From Lentisphaera araneosa HTCC2155 (GTDB taxonomy: Bacteria; Verrucomicrobiota; Lentisphaeria; Lentisphaerales; Lentisphaeraceae): 64,000 bases of DNA. The first letter of the stretch is position 1. Every line of letters begins with the position of its first letter. Positions 446-57,955 of this stretch are shown here, piece by piece. The notes under the pieces were generated by a model. That model made no database searches and had not been told where the DNA came from. It saw nothing but the letters and a program-made list of their open reading frames with translations. Both the position numbers and the translations under genes were made by a program. The stretch covers positions 1-64,000 of the forward strand of contig NZ_ABCK01000001.1 of NCBI RefSeq assembly GCF_000170755.1. Reading direction: 5' to 3'.

Positions 446-2596
446 ATGAACTTAAAACACTTAAGCGCCTTATTATTATTTTTTACTTCCTTTAGCACCT
501 TCGCCGAGGAAGATTTTATTGCCTCTGAGAAAGAGCGCCAAGTGACTCGGGTTGTGGCTCAGTTAATGACTCACCTGCATTATGAGAAAAAACCTCTTGA
601 TGATGAAATGAGTAAGGCGGTTTTTGATGAGTTTTTCAAACGCCTCGATTATAGCAAGCGCATTTTTCTTAAATCTGATTACGATCAATTCTCCAAGTAC
701 CGCCCTTTTTTAGATGATATGTACCTCCAAGGCGATTTAACTTTTGCCGAACTCTTCTTTAAACGCTTCAAACAACGCGTTCAAGAAAGACTCGATTATG
801 CCGAAAAGCGTTTGGCTGCAGGCATGGACCTTAAACATGGCGGTGCCTTAAGCTTAGATAGAGAAAATGCCGAGTGGAAAGAAAGCCCTGAAGAACTCAA
901 TGACCTCTGGGATCGCTATATTGAGAACGAAATCATCAATATGCACATCGGTAACTTAGCCAAGCAAATGAAAAAAGATGATGATGAAAAGAAAACAGAA
1001 GAGGAGGAGGCTGCTTTAAACGAAGATAATGGTTCAACTGAAGAGCAGGTACGCAGAAGAATTGTTTTCCGCTTAAAGAACCTCCTAGAAATGGAGAGAG
1101 ATAAGTTTTTCGAGATGGCCATCTCGATGATGACAGGATGTTTTGATCCTCATTCAACTTACTTTGGCCCTAAGAGCATGGAAGAATTCGAGATCATGAT
1201 GAAGCTTTCATTGAACGGTATCGGCGCCACTCTTACCAACAGCGACGGTTACACGAAAGTGGTTCGTATTATTTCTGGTGGTCCCGCAGATAAAGCCAAG
1301 CAATTGAAAAAAGGCGACCGAATCATTGAAGTTCAGCAAGCGGGTGAAGAGCCAGTGAATGTCATTGATATGCCACTTTCAAAAACAATTAGCATGATTC
1401 GTGGGCCTAAAGGCAAAGTCGTCACACTCCATGTTTTACGTGGGGGCATTAATGGTGTTCGTCATGTCTTGAGCATTAAACGCGATAAGATTGATATCTC
1501 AGAATCTGCCGCAGCAAGAAGTAAGTTATTCGAATTAGAAAGAGATGGAGCCATGCAAAAAGTTGGCGTCATTTATCTTCCTTCTTTTTACTTTCACCCC
1601 CAATCAAAGAAGAGTTGTGCGAACGACGTGAAAGCTGAAGTTCTAAAGTTAAAAGAACAGGGTATGCAATCACTTGTTTTTGACTTGCGTGACAATGGTG
1701 GTGGTAGCTTGAGTGAAGTGATCAAGATGACGGGCTTCTTTATCAAAGAAGGTCCGGTAGTTCAAGTGAAAGATTATCGCGGTGAAATTGATGTTCAGAA
1801 AGACCGTTCAGATGATGTGGTTTACGGTGGACCTCTTACAGTTTTAGTGAATCAACACTCGGCTTCAGCCTCTGAAATCTTTGCTGCGGCTATCCAAGAC
1901 TATGAGCGTGGTGTTGTCATTGGCAGTGCTGATCGAACTCACGGTAAAGGCACAGTTCAACAAGTCTATGACTTAGAGCGAATTCAGCAAATGAAAGAAT
2001 TAGCTAAGAATGGTTTTAAACCTGGCGAACTCAAATTTACGATTGCTAAATTCTACCGCATCAATGGTGGTTCAACTCAGAAAATGGGTGTAATCCCAGA
2101 CATTATCCTCCCTCACTTCTACGATAAAGAAAATGGTGGTGAAGCCTCCTTACGTCACTCATTAAAGTACGACACAATTCCTAGAGCACGCGTAAATAAA
2201 GAAGTTTCTGTGAATTCAGCTTTAGATAAATTAAGAAATAATTCAGATAAACGCGTCGGGAAAAGTGATGATTTTGCAGAGCTTCAAAAAGAACTTGATT
2301 ACTACAGAGATCGTTATGAAGATAAAGAGATTTCTCTCAATCAAGATGAGCGAATTTCTGAATTCAAAATGCATTATCAAAGAAGCCAAGACCGTAAAGA
2401 AGTACTACGTCGTATTTCGGGCCGTAAGCCAAAAGCTGAGGAAGAAGAGGATGACGAAGTTGAAGGTCTAGGTGCTTTCTCTCAAGATGGACGTGAAGAA
2501 GTTCTCTTGGATGTCTACTTAAAAGAGGCGGTCGAAATCTCAATAGATCTTCAGATTATGGCTCAAGATAAAAATTCTAACTTGGTGATTCGTTAA
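446..2596 (+). CDS. prc: Carboxy-terminal (tail-specific) processing protease, S41 family
   Basis: 716-aa exported serine protease that degrades or processes envelope proteins from their C-termini. Residues 1-20 are a signal peptide ending TFA. An N-terminal Tsp-type helical domain (about 30-190) is followed by a PDZ domain (about 240-340, with the GIGATL loop), the S41 catalytic core (about 360-560) and a C-terminal DUF3340-like tail (about 560-690). The core carries SASASEIFAAA and GKGTVQQ. By alignment with E. coli Prc, Ser474 and Lys501 form the catalytic dyad, with two extra residues between them. Length is close to E. coli Prc (682). It lies 5 bp upstream of cobC, so it appears to lead the following operon. 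Confidence 0.93.
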   Translation: MNLKHLSALLLFFTSFSTFAEEDFIASEKERQVTRVVAQLMTHLHYEKKPLDDEMSKAVFDEFFKRLDYSKRIFLKSDYDQFSKYRPFLDDMYLQGDLTFAELFFKRFKQRVQERLDYAEKRLAAGMDLKHGGALSLDRENAEWKESPEELNDLWDRYIENEIINMHIGNLAKQMKKDDDEKKTEEEEAALNEDNGSTEEQVRRRIVFRLKNLLEMERDKFFEMAISMMTGCFDPHSTYFGPKSMEEFEIMMKLSLNGIGATLTNSDGYTKVVRIISGGPADKAKQLKKGDRIIEVQQAGEEPVNVIDMPLSKTISMIRGPKGKVVTLHVLRGGINGVRHVLSIKRDKIDISESAAARSKLFELERDGAMQKVGVIYLPSFYFHPQSKKSCANDVKAEVLKLKEQGMQSLVFDLRDNGGGSLSEVIKMTGFFIKEGPVVQVKDYRGEIDVQKDRSDDVVYGGPLTVLVNQHSASASEIFAAAIQDYERGVVIGSADRTHGKGTVQQVYDLERIQQMKELAKNGFKPGELKFTIAKFYRINGGSTQKMGVIPDIILPHFYDKENGGEASLRHSLKYDTIPRARVNKEVSVNSALDKLRNNSDKRVGKSDDFAELQKELDYYRDRYEDKEISLNQDERISEFKMHYQRSQDRKEVLRRISGRKPKAEEEEDDEVEGLGAFSQDGREEVLLDVYLKEAVEISIDLQIMAQDKNSNLVIR

Positions 2597-2601
2597 AAGA
2601 A

Positions 2602-3183
2602 ATGCAAGTTCACCTTTTTCGCCACTTTGCTCATCAAGGCAAAGCTGGCGCTTTTTATGGTAGTACCAATCTCGAGCTCAAAAATAAGACTCACCTAGCA
2701 ATTACTCTTAAGCAGGGCACGAAAGTATTTTCGAGCCCTCTTTTGCGATGTACGCAAAGTTTAGATCGTTTGCAGCTCAATAGTGAACTTAATTTGCAAG
2801 AAGCTAAGGAAGTGGATTTTGGCTCTTGGGAAGGACTCACTTACGCAGAAATAGAGAAAGAGTTCCCAATAGAAGTAAAAGCTTGGCAAGAAAACGAGAA
2901 CTTTCATTTTCCTCAGGGCGAAAAAATCAAAGACTTTCAGAAGCGAATTGAGCATTTGGCTAAATTCATCGCGACACAAAAAGAAGATGTTTTTTTGATG
3001 ACTCACGGCGGAGTGATACGTCACTTAATTTGCCATTACTTAGGGATAAGCTACGATAAGAGCTTGGCATTTCAGGTCGATACAGGATCGCTTTCATCCA
3101 TCGAGCTATTCTCAGGTGGCCTAGGTGTTTTAAAGGCTTTAAATCTAAAAGAAGTGGAATCATGGCAAGCATTACTTTCATAA
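2602..3183 (+). CDS. cobC: Histidine phosphatase, probable alpha-ribazole phosphatase CobC
   Basis: 193-aa cytosolic histidine-phosphatase-superfamily protein. It has the N-terminal phosphohistidine motif LFRHFAH (His8), Arg49 in SSPLLRC, the acidic EVDFGSWEG segment (70-77) and the second catalytic histidine in THGGVIRH (His135). The superfamily is broad, so the alpha-ribazole-phosphate phosphatase assignment (nucleotide-loop assembly of cobalamin) rests on the neighbours cobU, cobT and cobS, with which it overlaps or nearly abuts. The first motif is RHFAH rather than the commoner RHGET/RHGQT. It starts 5 bp after prc and overlaps cobU by 22 bp. No strong ribosome binding site is visible, so translation may be coupled to prc. 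Confidence 0.8.
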   Translation: MQVHLFRHFAHQGKAGAFYGSTNLELKNKTHLAITLKQGTKVFSSPLLRCTQSLDRLQLNSELNLQEAKEVDFGSWEGLTYAEIEKEFPIEVKAWQENENFHFPQGEKIKDFQKRIEHLAKFIATQKEDVFLMTHGGVIRHLICHYLGISYDKSLAFQVDTGSLSSIELFSGGLGVLKALNLKEVESWQALLS

Positions 3184-3701
3184 CAGGCGGTTGCCGATCA
3201 GGAAAAAGTTCAAAAGCAGAGGAACTCTGTTTAAATTCACCACCTCCTCATCACTACCTCGCCACGGCTACCGCATTTGATGGTGAAATGAGCAAGCGTA
3301 TCGAAGCTCATAAAATCCAAAGAGCTGCTGCCCATTGGAATAATGTTGAAGAGCCTTTAGAGATTTTAGAAAAGATTAAAGATTTTAAAGAAGGCAGTGT
3401 GCTACTCGAATGTGTGACTTTGTGGATTAGTAATTTGATGTGGCAGTCCGAACAAGATAATGCTGAAATTAATGAAAGCCTTATCATAGAGAAAACCGAA
3501 GCGCTTATTGAAGCGATGAAAGTGAGTCCTTGTCATTTCTTTATCGTCTCTAATGAAACTGGCTTAGGGATCATGCCGATGAATGCTCAAGCACGTTTAT
3601 TCGGTGACTTGGCAGGGCGTTGTAATCAGCTTTTGGCGAAGGCCGCAGATCGTGCGATTTTTATGGTGAGTGGTCTGCCGATGGAACTTAAAAATGTTTA
3701 A
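3162..3701 (+). CDS. cobU: Adenosylcobinamide kinase / adenosylcobinamide-phosphate guanylyltransferase
   Basis: 179-aa bifunctional enzyme that phosphorylates adenosylcobinamide and transfers GMP to it to make AdoCbi-GDP. The P-loop GGCRSGKSS is at residues 9-17. The segment KRIEAHKIQR (about 45-54) holds the conserved histidine (His50) that is guanylylated in the family. The SNETGLGIMP segment near residue 130 is also typical. Length matches the family (about 180). The start lies inside the end of cobC and the stop overlaps the cobT start, so the four cob genes read as one tightly coupled unit. Confidence 0.93.
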   Translation: MASITFITGGCRSGKSSKAEELCLNSPPPHHYLATATAFDGEMSKRIEAHKIQRAAAHWNNVEEPLEILEKIKDFKEGSVLLECVTLWISNLMWQSEQDNAEINESLIIEKTEALIEAMKVSPCHFFIVSNETGLGIMPMNAQARLFGDLAGRCNQLLAKAADRAIFMVSGLPMELKNV

Positions 3702-4731
3702 AGTCCCCCGTATTGACCGAGTCGATCAAAGTTTTGCGACAAAAGCAAAGAATAAACTCGATTCATTAGCTATTCCTCAAGGTGCACTCGGTGACTTGGG
3801 GGCTTTAGCTGAGACATTAATGACTTTCCAAAAATCACTCACACCCAGTTTTAAGAAGCGCGAACTCTTCCTTTGTGCAGCGGACCATGGCATTGCAGTA
3901 AAAGGAGTGAGTCAATACCCACAAATCACAGATAAAATTTTAACTTGTGCGAGTTATCAAGGAGCAGTGATTAATGCACTTTGCAAAACTCACGATTGTC
4001 ATTTATTTCTTATTGACTGCGGCTTGATTAATGATGTTAAACAGAGCTCTTTATCCATAATTAGCCAAGTACTTGATAATGGGACTAAAGATTTTTCGGT
4101 AGAAGCGGCCATGAGCTCCACGCAGTGCGAAAAGGCACTTAATAACGGGATTTACTTAGCCACTCAGAGTGAGGCGCAATTAATTCTTTTAGGAGAAATG
4201 GGCATCGGCAATACCAGTTCAGCCGCTGCGATGTTCGCAAAGCTTTACAATTTAGAAGCTGAGCAATGCGTTGGAGCTGGAACGGGCTTAGATAAAGAAG
4301 GTATAAAACATAAAGCGCAAATCATTCAGCAGGGCTTAGATCGCTTCTCTATCGAAGAGCTCGAAGGAGAAGAAAAGGCTTTTGAAATCCTAAGGCAATT
4401 GGGCGGTTTTGAACTCGCCACACTCGTGGGCATTTGTCTAGGTGCCGCTCAACAAGGTAAGCTAATCCTACTTGATGGTTTCTTATCAGCAGTGGTTGCG
4501 CTTATCGCAAAAGAATTTAATCCCGCAGTTCTCGACTATATGCTCGCGAGTCATGTCAGTCACGAACAAGCTCATAAACATGCTTTAGAACTTCTGGGTA
4601 AACAAGCTCTCCTAGACTTGAAAATGCGTTTAGGAGAGGGCAGTGGTGCCGTTTTAGCTTTACCCTTAATTGATAGTGTTTGTGCTATACTTGAGAGCAC
4701 CATGACGCTAGATGAGGCACTCAGTGTTTAA
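3694..4731 (+). CDS. cobT: Nicotinate-nucleotide--dimethylbenzimidazole phosphoribosyltransferase
   Basis: 345-aa enzyme that makes alpha-ribazole phosphate from dimethylbenzimidazole and nicotinate mononucleotide, the lower-ligand branch of cobalamin synthesis. Conserved family segments include AADHGIAVKGVSQYP, GEMGIGNTSSAAA and the C-terminal RLGEGSGA, in which Glu315 matches the catalytic glutamate (Glu317 of Salmonella CobT). I chose the ATG at 3694, which overlaps the cobU stop by 8 bp and has GGAA upstream. An in-frame ATG at 3670 would add eight residues that do not resemble the family N-terminus. No cobalamin-lid or corrin-ring genes are present, suggesting salvage/assembly only, as far as this window shows. 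Confidence 0.92.
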   Translation: MFKVPRIDRVDQSFATKAKNKLDSLAIPQGALGDLGALAETLMTFQKSLTPSFKKRELFLCAADHGIAVKGVSQYPQITDKILTCASYQGAVINALCKTHDCHLFLIDCGLINDVKQSSLSIISQVLDNGTKDFSVEAAMSSTQCEKALNNGIYLATQSEAQLILLGEMGIGNTSSAAAMFAKLYNLEAEQCVGAGTGLDKEGIKHKAQIIQQGLDRFSIEELEGEEKAFEILRQLGGFELATLVGICLGAAQQGKLILLDGFLSAVVALIAKEFNPAVLDYMLASHVSHEQAHKHALELLGKQALLDLKMRLGEGSGAVLALPLIDSVCAILESTMTLDEALSV

Positions 4732-5488: not shown

Positions 5489-6567
5489 AGTTTTTAAGAT
5501 CACTTTTTATGCGTTTGATGAAATCAATTATTAGTATCATTGTTCTTCTGCTTATGTCTTTAGCAGGTATTTGGTGCTTTTTACATAAGCCCTGGCTCGA
5601 AGCTGCCGACAAGCAAGTGCCTCAAGTTAAAGTTGACCCAGAGCGCATGAAAGAAATTGTTAAACTTTTTTCAGTGCGTTTTCACCCTCGATCCTATCGA
5701 GATCACGTTGCCTTACTTGCAACGGGCAAGACAATCCAAAGGCGTTTTGAAACGACTAAAGGTAAAGTTGAGATGCAGAAGTTTTCTGTCAATATTCCAG
5801 ACAAGGGAGAAACGGTTTCTAAAGAATACTTCAATGTTTCTTGTCTTTTTGGTGAAGGAAAAGGCCCGCTCATCATTATTGGGGCTCATTACGACTCACA
5901 CGACATGACACCTGGTGCCGATGATAATGCTTCAGGCCTTGCAGGCTTATTAGAACTTGCTTATTTATTGGATGCCGAGAAAAAACTCAACTGTGAAATT
6001 GAACTGGTAGCTTACAGCTTGGAAGAACCTCCTTTTTTTGCGACAGATGATATGGGCAGTGCCCATCATGCCAATAAACTCGAAAAAGAAGGTGTAGAAG
6101 TGCGTGCTGTCTTGATCTTAGAGATGATTGGTTATTTTACTGAAGAAGCCAACTCTCAAGATTATCCTACGCCTTTGTTTAAATTGCTTTACCCAAGTGT
6201 GGGCAATTTTATTGCTATAGTGGGCAAACTAGATCAAGGTAAATTCACCGGTGAAGTGAAGTCGGCCTTTATGTCGGTGCAAGGTTTAGGCGTACAATCT
6301 ATAAATGCACCCGTTGAAATTCCTGGGATAGATTTTTCGGATCACCGCAATTACTGGGCCAAAGGTCATCAGGCAGTGATGATTACAGATACTGCCTTTT
6401 ATCGTAATAAGGCTTATCATACTGAAAATGATACCTGGGATCGTCTCAACTATGAAAAAATGGCTCTAGTAGTCGAGGGTACTTTTAATGCGGTTATGAA
6501 ACTCTCCAAGAAAGAGCCAAAAGTAGAGCTTAATAAGGAAGTGAAAGAAACTCCCACAAAAGAATAA
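5485..6567 (+). CDS. M28-family zinc peptidase, membrane-anchored
   Basis: 360-aa M28 (aminopeptidase-like) protein. A hydrophobic segment at about 15-33 is probably an uncleaved anchor, placing the catalytic domain outside the cytoplasm. Zinc-ligand motifs are visible: GAHYDSH (His135), GADDNASG (Asp147), YSLEEPPF (catalytic Glu180/181), EMIGYF (Glu213) and a C-terminal AYHTENDTWD histidine. It overlaps cobS by 4 bp (ATGA), so it belongs to the same transcription unit although no role in cobalamin metabolism is known for this family. The substrate cannot be told from sequence. Confidence 0.85.
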   Translation: MKFLRSLFMRLMKSIISIIVLLLMSLAGIWCFLHKPWLEAADKQVPQVKVDPERMKEIVKLFSVRFHPRSYRDHVALLATGKTIQRRFETTKGKVEMQKFSVNIPDKGETVSKEYFNVSCLFGEGKGPLIIIGAHYDSHDMTPGADDNASGLAGLLELAYLLDAEKKLNCEIELVAYSLEEPPFFATDDMGSAHHANKLEKEGVEVRAVLILEMIGYFTEEANSQDYPTPLFKLLYPSVGNFIAIVGKLDQGKFTGEVKSAFMSVQGLGVQSINAPVEIPGIDFSDHRNYWAKGHQAVMITDTAFYRNKAYHTENDTWDRLNYEKMALVVEGTFNAVMKLSKKEPKVELNKEVKETPTKE

Positions 6568-54871: not shown

Positions 54872-54913
54872 ATGAGATATAAAAAAATAAAAAATACGAG
54901 TTTAGCTTATTTA
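54872..54913 (+). pseudogene. 5' fragment of the interrupted serine hydrolase gene
   Basis: GGAG with 7-nt spacing precedes an ATG that encodes MRYKKIKNTSLAYL, the start of a signal peptide. The last 8 bases, CTTATTTA (54906-54913), recur at 56793-56800. The rest of the signal peptide (TLVSLGLSLSA) and the enzyme resume in the same frame at 56801, so the gene was split by an insertion. Confidence 0.85.
54906..54913. repeat. Direct repeat (target-site duplication), left copy
   Basis: CTTATTTA, identical to 56793-56800. Collapsing the two copies restores the serine hydrolase reading frame. Confidence 0.8.
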
Positions 54914-54920
54914 CGATTCA

Positions 54921-54932
54921 GTCATTTGTCCG
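54921..54932. repeat. Left terminal inverted repeat of the DUF1670 element
   Basis: GTCATTTGTCCG, the exact reverse complement of 56781-56792. Confidence 0.8.
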
Positions 54933-55015
54933 GTAAGTATCACTAGATACTAAAAAAGTGTAGTGTCCCCTTATAAATTGTTCTACCAAAAGCAAAAAAT
55001 AAGGAGCACTACACC

Positions 55016-55894
55016 ATGAGTATACAAATAGCGAACTCTCAAGAAAATCAAAGTCGTCGCCTGTCTTTAAAAACAATGAATCAGCAAATGAGTCACTTGG
55101 CGGTTCATGGAGCGGGCCTAAGTCCTTGGGAAGCCAAAGAACTGGTTCGCATGATAGATGAGGTCTATTTTTCCTACAGCCAAAAGGAACTGAAAGAAGG
55201 TCAACTCAAGTACAACTGCGTCTCGGCCAAGGAAGGTGCAGGTAAGGCACTCAAAGACTGTGAAATGATAAGCGTCACTCTAAGTGTATTCAGTGATTTT
55301 GACGAAGAAGAGTTGCCCAATAGAAAAAATAAACAACGGCAAGTTGTTCGCCGTCAGCGCAGATTAATACGTTTGAGCGAAGAGGCCCGCGATCAAGGAG
55401 GTCTATTAAGCCAGGAGGATTTGGCCAAGCTGTTGATGTGTGATACAAAAACGATCCGACGTGATGTCAAACACTTACAAGAGGAAGGTATTGTCATTCC
55501 GACGCGTGGCCAACAAAAAGATATTGGTCCTGGAGTTACACACCGTGAATTGGTCATTCGTCATTGGGTGGAAGGCAAAGAAGAAGTTGAAGTTGCGAGT
55601 GCTACAAAACATTCGATGGGCGCCGTTGAGAGTTACCTTCAAAAGTTTAAAGTTGCGGTTTACTTACGGGTAGGGAAGAGCTTCACTGACCATGAAATCG
55701 CGGTAGTTGCAGGAATCTCACAACGCGGCGTGAAGACATTCCTTAAGATTTACGACGAGTTTAAGAATAAAGATATGTTCAAACATCGTCTGGATGAAAT
55801 CCTGCTTACAGGAGATGAATACTATAAGGAAGTTGGCGAAAAAAAAGACTCACTACTGTCGAATCTATCAAATCCCGTATGGAGCAGAGCATGA
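55016..55894 (+). CDS. DUF1670 protein, first gene of the mobile element
   Basis: 292-aa cytosolic protein. The N-terminal third (MNQQMSHLAVHGAGLSPWEAKELVRMIDEVY) is family-specific. From about residue 125, LSEEARDQGGLLSQEDLAKLLMCDTKTIRRDVKHLQEEG is a clear helix-turn-helix. FTDHEIAVVAGISQRGVKTFL near 230 looks like a second. No DDE, HUH, Y- or S-recombinase motif is visible. AAGGAG precedes the ATG at 8 nt. Its stop overlaps the next start (ATGA). It is a distant paralogue of the next gene. Confidence 0.8.
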   Translation: MSIQIANSQENQSRRLSLKTMNQQMSHLAVHGAGLSPWEAKELVRMIDEVYFSYSQKELKEGQLKYNCVSAKEGAGKALKDCEMISVTLSVFSDFDEEELPNRKNKQRQVVRRQRRLIRLSEEARDQGGLLSQEDLAKLLMCDTKTIRRDVKHLQEEGIVIPTRGQQKDIGPGVTHRELVIRHWVEGKEEVEVASATKHSMGAVESYLQKFKVAVYLRVGKSFTDHEIAVVAGISQRGVKTFLKIYDEFKNKDMFKHRLDEILLTGDEYYKEVGEKKDSLLSNLSNPVWSRA

Positions 55895-56748
55895 AGACGC
55901 ATATTTCAGCGAATGAAGCAACTTACGGACCACAACAATATAAAACTTTTGCTGGAGCTTTAACAGCTTTTTTCTCTGAGGAGTGTCCGCAACTGGGAGG
56001 AATGAGGACTCGGCAAGTTTTGAGCTCAGCTATTATCTCTATGGTCAATAAATACTACCCTGAAACTTCTCATTTAAAACCGGGTCAGACGCCATGGGTG
56101 ACCACTGATAAAAATGCGACTAAATCATACGGAAAAAAGATCAGTCAAACACCTTTAGTGAGTATTATCCTAGATTTAGTACGAGCAGAAGATATTCAAG
56201 AGCGCAAAGACGGTAAGAAGCTCAGAGACATGAAAAAGGAAGCTGTTGCAAGGATGCTTAAACAAAGTTATGAGCAAGGTGGCTGTATGACCTCGGTTGA
56301 ATTAGCCATTCTTTTAAAGATCTCTCCACCAACTGTGGGTAAGTATATTAAAGAATGGGAACTGGAACACAATGAGGTTTTACCTAGAAGAGGTTCAATA
56401 CATGATATGGGGCCAACTCTCACGCACAAAAAAATCATAATAGAAAAACTTTTCATAAAGAAACTCAGCGTTCAACAAGTAAGTCGTGAGACTTATCATT
56501 CATTCCAGGCTATCCAGCGTTATATCAGCAAATTTAAACAGGTTCTTATCTGTTACAAAAAGGATATGAATATCAATGAAATCGCCAAAGTTGTTGGAAA
56601 CACGCCACGACTGATAAAAGAATACGAAGCCATTATTTTAGAGTACAAGGACCGCGGGTTTGTCTTAGAGCAAATCATCAATACGGACGCAAAGGTGGAC
56701 TCACAATACGAAACCATCATCAATGACTTGAACTCTCAGAAAAACTAA
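55891..56748 (+). CDS. DUF1670 protein, second gene of the mobile element
   Basis: 285-aa protein. I chose ATG 55891, which overlaps the upstream stop and has GGAG six bases before; ATG 55879 is an alternative. The N-terminal half (FAGALTAFFSEECPQLGGMRTRQVLSSAIISMV) is unlike the first protein. The second half aligns with it: EQGGCMTSVELAILLKISPPTVGKYIKEWE is the equivalent helix-turn-helix, MGPTLTHKK matches IGPGVTHRE, and MNINEIAKVVGNTPRLIKEY is a second one. Probably a heteromeric DNA-binding partner; catalytic residues are not recognisable. Confidence 0.8.
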   Translation: MKTHISANEATYGPQQYKTFAGALTAFFSEECPQLGGMRTRQVLSSAIISMVNKYYPETSHLKPGQTPWVTTDKNATKSYGKKISQTPLVSIILDLVRAEDIQERKDGKKLRDMKKEAVARMLKQSYEQGGCMTSVELAILLKISPPTVGKYIKEWELEHNEVLPRRGSIHDMGPTLTHKKIIIEKLFIKKLSVQQVSRETYHSFQAIQRYISKFKQVLICYKKDMNINEIAKVVGNTPRLIKEYEAIILEYKDRGFVLEQIINTDAKVDSQYETIINDLNSQKN

Positions 56749-56780
56749 ATATCTGTACGTAAGGGGACAATTACACCTCA

Positions 56781-56792
56781 CGGACAAATGAC
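56781..56792. repeat. Right terminal inverted repeat of the DUF1670 element
   Basis: CGGACAAATGAC, directly adjacent to the right direct repeat at 56793. Confidence 0.8.
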
Positions 56793-56800
56793 CTTATTTA
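56793..56800. repeat. Direct repeat (target-site duplication), right copy
   Basis: CTTATTTA, identical to 54906-54913. Confidence 0.8.
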
Positions 56801-57955
56801 ACATTAGTAAGCTTAGGACTCTCTCTTAGTGCAGTTGATGATGGTTTGGCACCTGAAGTTGTTGACCTTAATGCGAAAGATGTTTCAATGGAATGGGAGC
56901 AAAATATCCCTTACCTTGAGCACCCATATTTTAGTTCTCGGCCGATAAAAAAGGGGGATGATATTTTTGTTGGTGAACTGGGATTTGAAGGTGAGAATAA
57001 GCAGTTAATTGAATCATTTTCTAGAGCGATAGCCAAAGAATCATTTGCTGAGGGAAAGAGTAAAACCGATAGCTTGTTAATTAGTTATAAGGGGAAGCTG
57101 GTATTCGAGTCATACTATAGGCGTGGTCGTCAAAATGTGCCTCATTTTCAGATGTCGATAACCAAGTCTTATACCGCATTTGCACTTGGTCGTGCTATTC
57201 AGTTAGGCTATTTAAGTATGGATGACCTAAATAAGCCCGTAGTGAGTTTTTTAACAAAGCTTGATCCCCTAAAGTTATGTGCGGGTGCAGAGAAAATTAC
57301 TCTGGCAGAAGCTTTGAACATGACTTCAGGAATTAAACTTATAAATGATAAAATGAAGAACTATAAGACGCACCCAGAACGACTTAAAGGGCAACTGCAA
57401 GCACAGGCTTATTTGGCATGCAGTGAACAAATCCCTGCAGCCCCTAGGAAATTTTCCTATCAGCCTGCAGATCCTGCTTTAATTATGCAAGTTTTAGAAT
57501 CGGTCGTGCCAGGTACAGCCAAAGACTTTATCGAGCGAGAGCTAATGGGGAAGATGGGGATTATAAACTACTCATGGCAGTTAGATACGAGTGGTCTACC
57601 AAAATCTGCGGCTGGCTCCAGCTTTACTTCTCGTGATATGATAAAAGTAGGGACGATGGTGCTTCAAAACGGTAAATGGAAAGGAGAGCAATTGATTCCC
57701 AAAAAGTTTATTAAACGTGCTTTTAGTCCAATTACACTAAGTTATGGCTCAAATTTCTATGGCTATTTCTGTTGGTACCAAGATATTAGAGTAGGGGATC
57801 TAATTATCCCTTGTTTTCAGTTAAGAGGCGCTCTCGGGCAATATACTTTTATTTTCCCCAAACAAGAACTCGTGGTGGTCTCGACGGGACATGGAGCTAT
57901 GGGACCAATGTTGGGGGATATATCTCAAAAAATATTACCCGCTTTTATACAGTAA
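56801..57955 (+). pseudogene. Serine hydrolase (class C beta-lactamase-fold), 3' part, separated from its signal peptide
   Basis: 384 codons remain open to the stop, beginning TLVSLGLSLSAVDDG, the end of a signal peptide. Joined with 54872-54913 the gene would encode 398 aa. The active-site SxxK is in MSITKSYTAFALG; LAEALNMTSGI and the C-terminal LVVVSTGHGAMG (HxG-like) fit the beta-lactamase/6-aminohexanoate-dimer hydrolase family. A TTG at 56846 could restart translation, but without export. In this locus a secreted sugar or peptide esterase is plausible. Apart from the insertion the frame is undamaged, so the event looks recent. Confidence 0.82.

Follow-up and report, generated by a model that had tools for sequence, protein, structure and literature searches.

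Two overlapping DUF1670 genes form an insertion sequence that interrupts a beta-lactamase-family gene of Lentisphaera araneosa HTCC2155 without target duplication

The stretch of DNA analyzed here (the window) consists of 64,000 nucleotides of Lentisphaera araneosa HTCC2155 (assembly GCF_000170755.1, contig NZ_ABCK01000001.1, positions 1 to 64,000 of the forward strand). Between positions 54,872 and 57,955, a gene for a serine hydrolase of beta-lactamase fold is split by an insert that carries two genes for proteins with a domain of unknown function, DUF1670 (PF07900). The locus raises the question of whether such a gene pair is by itself a mobile element and, if so, where its ends lie and how it enters a target. 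An earlier examination of the letters of this DNA (the sequence-only reading) had described the pair as a transposable element flanked by an 8-bp direct repeat. The features on which the answer depends, including two open reading frames (ORF1 and ORF2), are as follows.

54872..54912, + strand: 5' portion of the split gene, which encodes a serine hydrolase of beta-lactamase fold (398 aa when joined; orthologue uninterrupted in the sister genome)
54913..56799, + strand: mobile element of 1,887 bp, its boundaries set by 8 full copies in the same genome; identical to the copy on contig C14
54913..54932, + strand: left end, ACGATTCA followed by the left inverted-repeat arm GTCATTTGTCCG (54921-54932); constant in all copies
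54958..55014, + strand: hairpin directly before the ORF1 start codon, with arms at 54958-54966 and 55006-55014 (RNA fold z = -7.05)
55016..55894, + strand: ORF1, DUF1670 protein of 292 aa (PF07900, E 2.8e-47)
55879..56748, + strand: ORF2, DUF1670 protein of 289 aa, overlapping ORF1 by 16 bp (PF07900, E 6.9e-53)
56781..56799, + strand: right end, inverted-repeat arm CGGACAAATGAC (56781-56792) followed by CTTATTT (56793-56799); constant in all copies
56800..57955, + strand: 3' part of the interrupted gene, its initial bases AACAT forming the right half of the target (PF00144 match in the joined frame)

The interrupted gene begins with the ATG at 54872, which starts MRYKKIKNTSLAYL, and its frame picks up at 56801 with TLVSLGLSLSA, followed by a protein of the PF00144 (beta-lactamase) family. 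Excision of the element gave an open frame of 398 aa belonging to this family, in agreement with the enzyme of that length predicted by the sequence-only reading, and an orthologue in the sister genome G001 was whole (62%, 401-codon frame with its own signal-like N-terminus). Two further parts of the earlier description were confirmed. Both ORFs of the insert matched PF07900 and no other gene was present between its ends, and the 12-bp inverted repeat GTCATTTGTCCG was located near both ends, at 54921-54932 (+) and 56781-56792 (-).

Further copies, for which the sequence-only reading had recommended a search, were evident in the same genome (6.0 Mb in 81 contigs), several of them nearly identical and at unrelated sites. 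Eight full copies of the window type (type A) were accompanied by one interrupted copy (C17) and one at a contig end (C25). The inverted repeat GTCATTTGTCCG was far more frequent than chance would allow, with 20 occurrences in the 6.0-Mb genome, 19 of them element ends, whereas the reversed control pattern occurred once; the extra match (C21:30029), within an unrelated ORF, was attributed to chance. No differences were noted between the window copy and the C14 copy (A1 and A2) over 1,887 bp, copies A3-A6 were mutually identical, and the two groups differed from each other at 53 positions. A second DUF1670-pair element of about 1,790 bp (type B) was represented by 4 copies at least 99.5% identical, with inverted repeats different from those of type A but the same outermost bases. 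The flanks of the copies were unrelated to each other, i.e., insertion sites differed. The interrupted type A copy (L043, G000:C17:17000-24500) contained an IS3-like element with an rve-type ORF of 275 aa (3456-4283), and 8 bases at this insertion point were found on both sides. One type B copy (L038, G000:C5:36000-40500) was seen by eye to lie directly at the end of an apparent tRNA gene, with right flank TAGTACCGAAGGTGGGACTTGAACCC.

Sites without the element, also recommended as a check, were found both as uninterrupted genes and as intact DNA. Exact removal of the element restored an open frame in 6 interrupted ORFs (A2, A4, A5, A6, A8 and BC10), including genes for Laminin_G_3 (A4), prepilin-like (A6), GH32 (A8) and BD-FAE hydrolase (BC10) proteins, and Pfam domains spanned the join in three of these (A4, A8 and BC10). 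The GH32 orthologue was whole in G001 (60% identity over residues 12-710), and the tblastn alignment to that genome crossed the join without a gap there. At L081 (G295, about 1250-3310), a DUF1670 element was present in one arm of a palindromic repeat while the other arm contained the uninterrupted target, TTAACCCGGATATTT/CATGACTCTC; the intact target beside the element reads TTAACCCGGATATTTCATGACTCTC. This palindromic repeat, roughly 180 bp in length with 26-bp ends TTAACCCGGATATTTCATGACTCTCA, is possibly a separate repeat resembling a miniature inverted-repeat transposable element. The view that the DUF1670 pair is a transposable element was thus borne out by identical copies at unrelated sites, in-frame restorations, intact orthologues and an intact DNA target, together with ends held in common across phyla and archaea. 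The segment from 54913 to 56799 is a complete, recently active insertion sequence, and its mobility can be regarded as practically certain.

The ends were placed by alignment of flanks, in which the left end was invariant from (A/C)CGAT inward and the right end invariant up to CTTATTT. In the window, CTTATTTA is present twice (54906-54913 and 56793-56800), so that the direct repeat of the sequence-only reading does exist, but its interpretation as target-site duplication did not hold, there being other copies that match over 2-6 bp only. The left half of the target is CTTATTT (54906-54912), the final bases of the 5' part of the interrupted gene; the right-hand CTTATTT belongs to the element, and the A that closes the repeat comes from the element at the left and from the target at the right. 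Agreement between left flank and CTTATTT extended over 7, 7, 4, 2, 6, 2, 4, 6, 5 and 7 bases for type A copies and over 2, 3, 3 and 7 bases for type B copies. Because the length of this match is anywhere between 2 and 7 bp and the right end is nevertheless constant, no target duplication is indicated, and comparison of all copies ruled out the 8-bp one. The apparent direct repeat of the window is, as judged from the aligned copies, a good match between target and element end, and the bases that left flank and right end have in common stem from a preference for ATTT|nnGWT targets plus a TT core.

The same rules were evident in a comparison of 14 elements, 11 bacterial (including the window and type B elements) and 3 from ANME-1 archaea. 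The right end was TTATTT or CTATTT in 14/14 elements, and the left end started with NC(G/T)AT, a sequence conserved in other phyla as well as in ANME-1. Subterminal inverted repeats of 12-13 bp were symmetric about the base that follows TTATTT (+1) in all 14, a right offset of n corresponding to a left offset of n+1. The target consensus derived from 24 left and 22 right flanks was TnATTT|nAGWT: every site had TT at -2/-1 (24/24), 19/22 had T at +5 (P about 1e-7) and 12/22 had G at +3 (P about 2e-4). If joined, the element ends would read TTATTT|NCGATTA. Both halves of this sequence lie near the target consensus, as one would expect of a circle junction that recombines with a target like itself. 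Where the element begins and ends, how many copies exist, that they moved recently and without duplication, what the target consensus is, and that the ends are conserved and have dyad symmetry are all conclusions drawn directly from these sequence comparisons. At four loci (L059, L060, L064 and L082), the arm motif (GGnCAnATGCC) occurred twice in direct orientation at the right end, with a spacing of 17 bp, and once at the left end, an asymmetry that may let a recombinase tell left from right.

Taken as a whole, these observations are probably best explained by an insertion sequence family in which a heteromer of the DUF1670 pair joins the element ends into a circle that recombines with a target without duplicating it. 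The DUF1670 proteins, always encoded as an adjacent pair of paralogous proteins with multiple helix-turn-helix (HTH) units, would constitute the recombinase, probably as a heteromer, which would bind the 12-13-bp subterminal inverted repeats and bring the ends together. The ends would then be joined in a circle junction of the form arm-TTATTT|NCGATTA-arm (for the window type, CTTATTT|ACGATTCAGTCATTTGTCCG), and this junction would recombine with a similar target, TnATTT|nAGWT, by strand exchange at or beside TT such that the target would be neither duplicated nor lost. We infer the circular intermediate, the 2-bp core, the heteromer and chemistry performed by the pair. That the DUF1670 pair is the catalyst appears highly probable, and conservative recombination of a circle type is reasonably likely.

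ORF1 and ORF2 were identified as paralogues (hhalign probability 100%, 23% identity). Beside DUF1670, only HTH similarity was noted in either (Pfam, NCBIfam, PHROGs and PADLOC, with weak matches in the last two), and sequence and fold searches of the PDB returned only short weak or HTH-like matches. In the AlphaFold models, a helical N-terminal region with a sheet of two strands was accompanied by a winged helix and another two HTH-like units. Among the Pfam matches of 18 proteins there was no DDE transposase domain, and the proteins gave no Pfam match to the DEDD and Ser recombinase of IS110/IS1111 (PF01548/PF02371), the resolvase catalytic domain (PF00239), the HUH Y1 transposase domain or the tyrosine recombinase domain (PF00589), the last of which was not found by Foldseek either. 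Homology to tyrosine recombinases was rejected by hhalign comparison with 11 such host proteins (probability 0.2-2.5%). Across 44 proteins, residues invariant or nearly so in both paralogues (ORF1/ORF2) included Q63/70, G76/85, K77/86, R119/125, R164/171, D169/176, H176/183, H199/207 and Y207/215, with R119/125, H176/183 and Y207/215 invariant, K77/86 and R164/171 at 93% and H199/207 at 98%. No carboxylate triad was conserved in both paralogues of this set, and the sole nearly invariant acidic residue, D169/D176, argues against DDE or DEDD chemistry. The combination of an invariant tyrosine and conserved R, K and H residues is reminiscent of tyrosine recombinases, but this likeness is speculative, no homology is detectable and the order of these residues differs; as judged from conservation, Y207 of ORF1 and Y215 of ORF2 would be the best candidate nucleophiles. 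It is tentatively suggested that DUF1670 represents a new recombinase class, i.e., a heteromer of paralogous multi-HTH proteins with no recognizable DDE, DEDD, HUH, serine or tyrosine recombinase fold, acting through a circle, with a TT core as the place of reciprocal exchange and perhaps the invariant tyrosine as nucleophile, in bacteria and ANME-1 archaea.

Several points weigh against recombination by the DUF1670 pair through a circle. No circle junction or tandem copy was seen in the assembly, and core sequences were diverged or atypical at L062, L121, L129 and L130. No catalytic domain was recognized, hmmscan giving only HTH families besides DUF1670; the AlphaFold models were moderate (local confidence pLDDT 76-77, overall confidence pTM 0.42-0.45), and Foldseek gave no PDB match at E <= 0.001. 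A host-encoded recombinase may also act on the element ends, though hosts range from Lentisphaeria to ANME-1 archaea. In the form in which DUF1670 proteins are only regulators or accessories of an element moved by the host, as Xer moves IMEX elements, this last alternative would fit with the HTH domains being the only ones recognized, with end anatomy of the site-specific recombination kind and with 25 tyrosine-recombinase (PF00589) matches in the same genome. It is nevertheless judged unlikely: ends and protein pair stay together across Lentisphaeria, Chlamydiae and ANME-1 archaea, there is no third conserved gene, and the core is unlike that of dif-like sites, which have a 6-bp spacer.

The lack of duplication, the target preference and the TT core are not what ordinary cut-and-paste by a DDE transposase would suggest. 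An insertion sequence of conventional DDE type that duplicates its target, by 8 bp or by a 2-bp TT in the manner in which IS630 duplicates TA, would account for the direct repeat at the junctions of the window copy, is consistent with weak HTH similarity to IS630 and IS21 transposases and, in the 2-bp version, would yield the same sequences as a common TT core. However, left flank and right end agree over anything between 2 and 7 bp although the latter is the same in every copy, the inverted repeats are not terminal but lie 6-8 bp inside, and, with D169/D176 as the only acidic residue nearly invariant in both proteins, no DDE triad is evident; this explanation is considered very unlikely. Just as improbable is a single-strand transposon like IS200/IS605 (HUH Y1 transposase), with insertion 3' of a TTATTT-like motif and CTTATTT as right cleavage site. 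In its favor, every insertion lies 3' of the short fixed motif (A)TTT and has left no duplication, the right end repeats the target motif and a hairpin is present near the left end, but neither protein has an HUH domain by Pfam, the inverted-repeat arms are symmetric on duplex DNA and preference extends to the right flank (G at +3, T at +5).

Recombination through a circle by the DUF1670 pair has closer parallels elsewhere. Elements of the IS1111/IS110 kind share 11-13-bp subterminal inverted repeats, extensions of unequal length outside these repeats (7 bp at the left and 3 bp at the right for IS1111 as compared with about 7 and 6 for the DUF1670 element; PMC11187229), no true target duplication and a target that resembles the element core. 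The history of ISEc11, for which a claimed 4-bp duplication was later reassigned to the insertion sequence end (PMC11187229), parallels that of the present element, whose apparent duplication is likewise an element end. In contrast, IS1111/IS110 elements encode one DEDD/Ser recombinase that acts with a seekRNA or bridge RNA, whereas two DUF1670 proteins are encoded here; the non-coding DNA of the window copy (103 nt left, 51 nt right) leaves no room for a guide RNA of roughly 100-200 nt, and one target consensus common to diverged elements indicates that the DUF1670 element is not visibly RNA-programmed. A circular intermediate and a 2-bp overlap dinucleotide without larger duplication were also proposed for IS607 (PMC4058570), the elements of which have a serine transposase; unlike these, the DUF1670 element lacks a resolvase domain and TnpB, and it prefers TnATTT|nAGWT whereas IS607 has little target preference. 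Tyrosine-recombinase elements (Tn916-like, IMEX/Xer) resemble it in a core between inverted arms and perhaps in the R, K, H, H and invariant Y residues of the DUF1670 proteins, which stand in a different order, but have no detectable homology to these proteins. By analogy, these comparisons point to an element that may work like IS110/IS1111 or IS607 but by test belongs to none of these families.

The hairpin before ORF1 covers the Shine-Dalgarno sequence AAGGAG (55001-55006, on the 3' side) and ends one base before the start codon. Stems of different sequence but equivalent location (8-12 bp, loop of 36-46 nt) were noted at L059, L063, L081, L082 and L083, where no more than 10 of 200 shuffles were as good, while in B, L061, L062, L064, L065 and L066 the hairpin was weak or absent by the shuffle test. 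An Rfam scan gave no known RNA family above gathering score; sub-threshold matches to mir-154 and RNA-OUT were taken as chance or shape similarity. In known insertion sequences, such hairpins block translation from outside transcripts, and by analogy this is the likely role here; the hairpin could also be a DNA operator.

DUF1670 pairs were present in metagenome-assembled genomes labeled Victivallales, Lentisphaerae, Chlamydiae, Chitinophagaceae, Hydrogenedentes and Methanophagales, labels that may be wrong for single contigs. Matches were found in 16/289 sampled genomes of the same phylum and in 27/58 genomes of the class of the Methanophagales genome G307, with up to 18 in one genome and often at contig ends, as expected of repeats. 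At the sensitivity used, searches of viral contigs, plasmids and phages yielded no relatives. Complete loci had ORF1 followed by ORF2 and no further conserved gene. No mention of DUF1670 or PF07900 was found in the literature searched, which did not include ISfinder or subscription literature, nor was this element family matched by any in the papers describing new insertion sequences; within these sources, it is undescribed. The results assign a function to DUF1670, a Pfam domain shared by bacteria and archaea that had none, and expose an insertion sequence family overlooked by annotation that relies on transposase homology. Should the pair perform its own chemistry, it would amount to a small recombinase of two proteins, each of about 290 aa, that uses one short fixed target, makes no duplication and has no clear relationship to known classes; such an enzyme would be interesting with respect to recombination mechanism and to genome tools. 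With the rules established for the ends (TTATTT, NCGAT and a dyad center at +1), the question of mechanism can be tested directly.

Two of the loci had additional duplications. At L065, the element was directly followed by a further, incomplete copy of the ORF2 C-terminal region (5854-6159), identical where shown. At L056/L064 (G048:C14), a segment running into a tRNA-Pro-like gene was present in two copies, one to either side of the DUF1670 element, near a gene for an insertion sequence transposase of 518 aa, and its upstream copy was truncated within the tRNA-like part.

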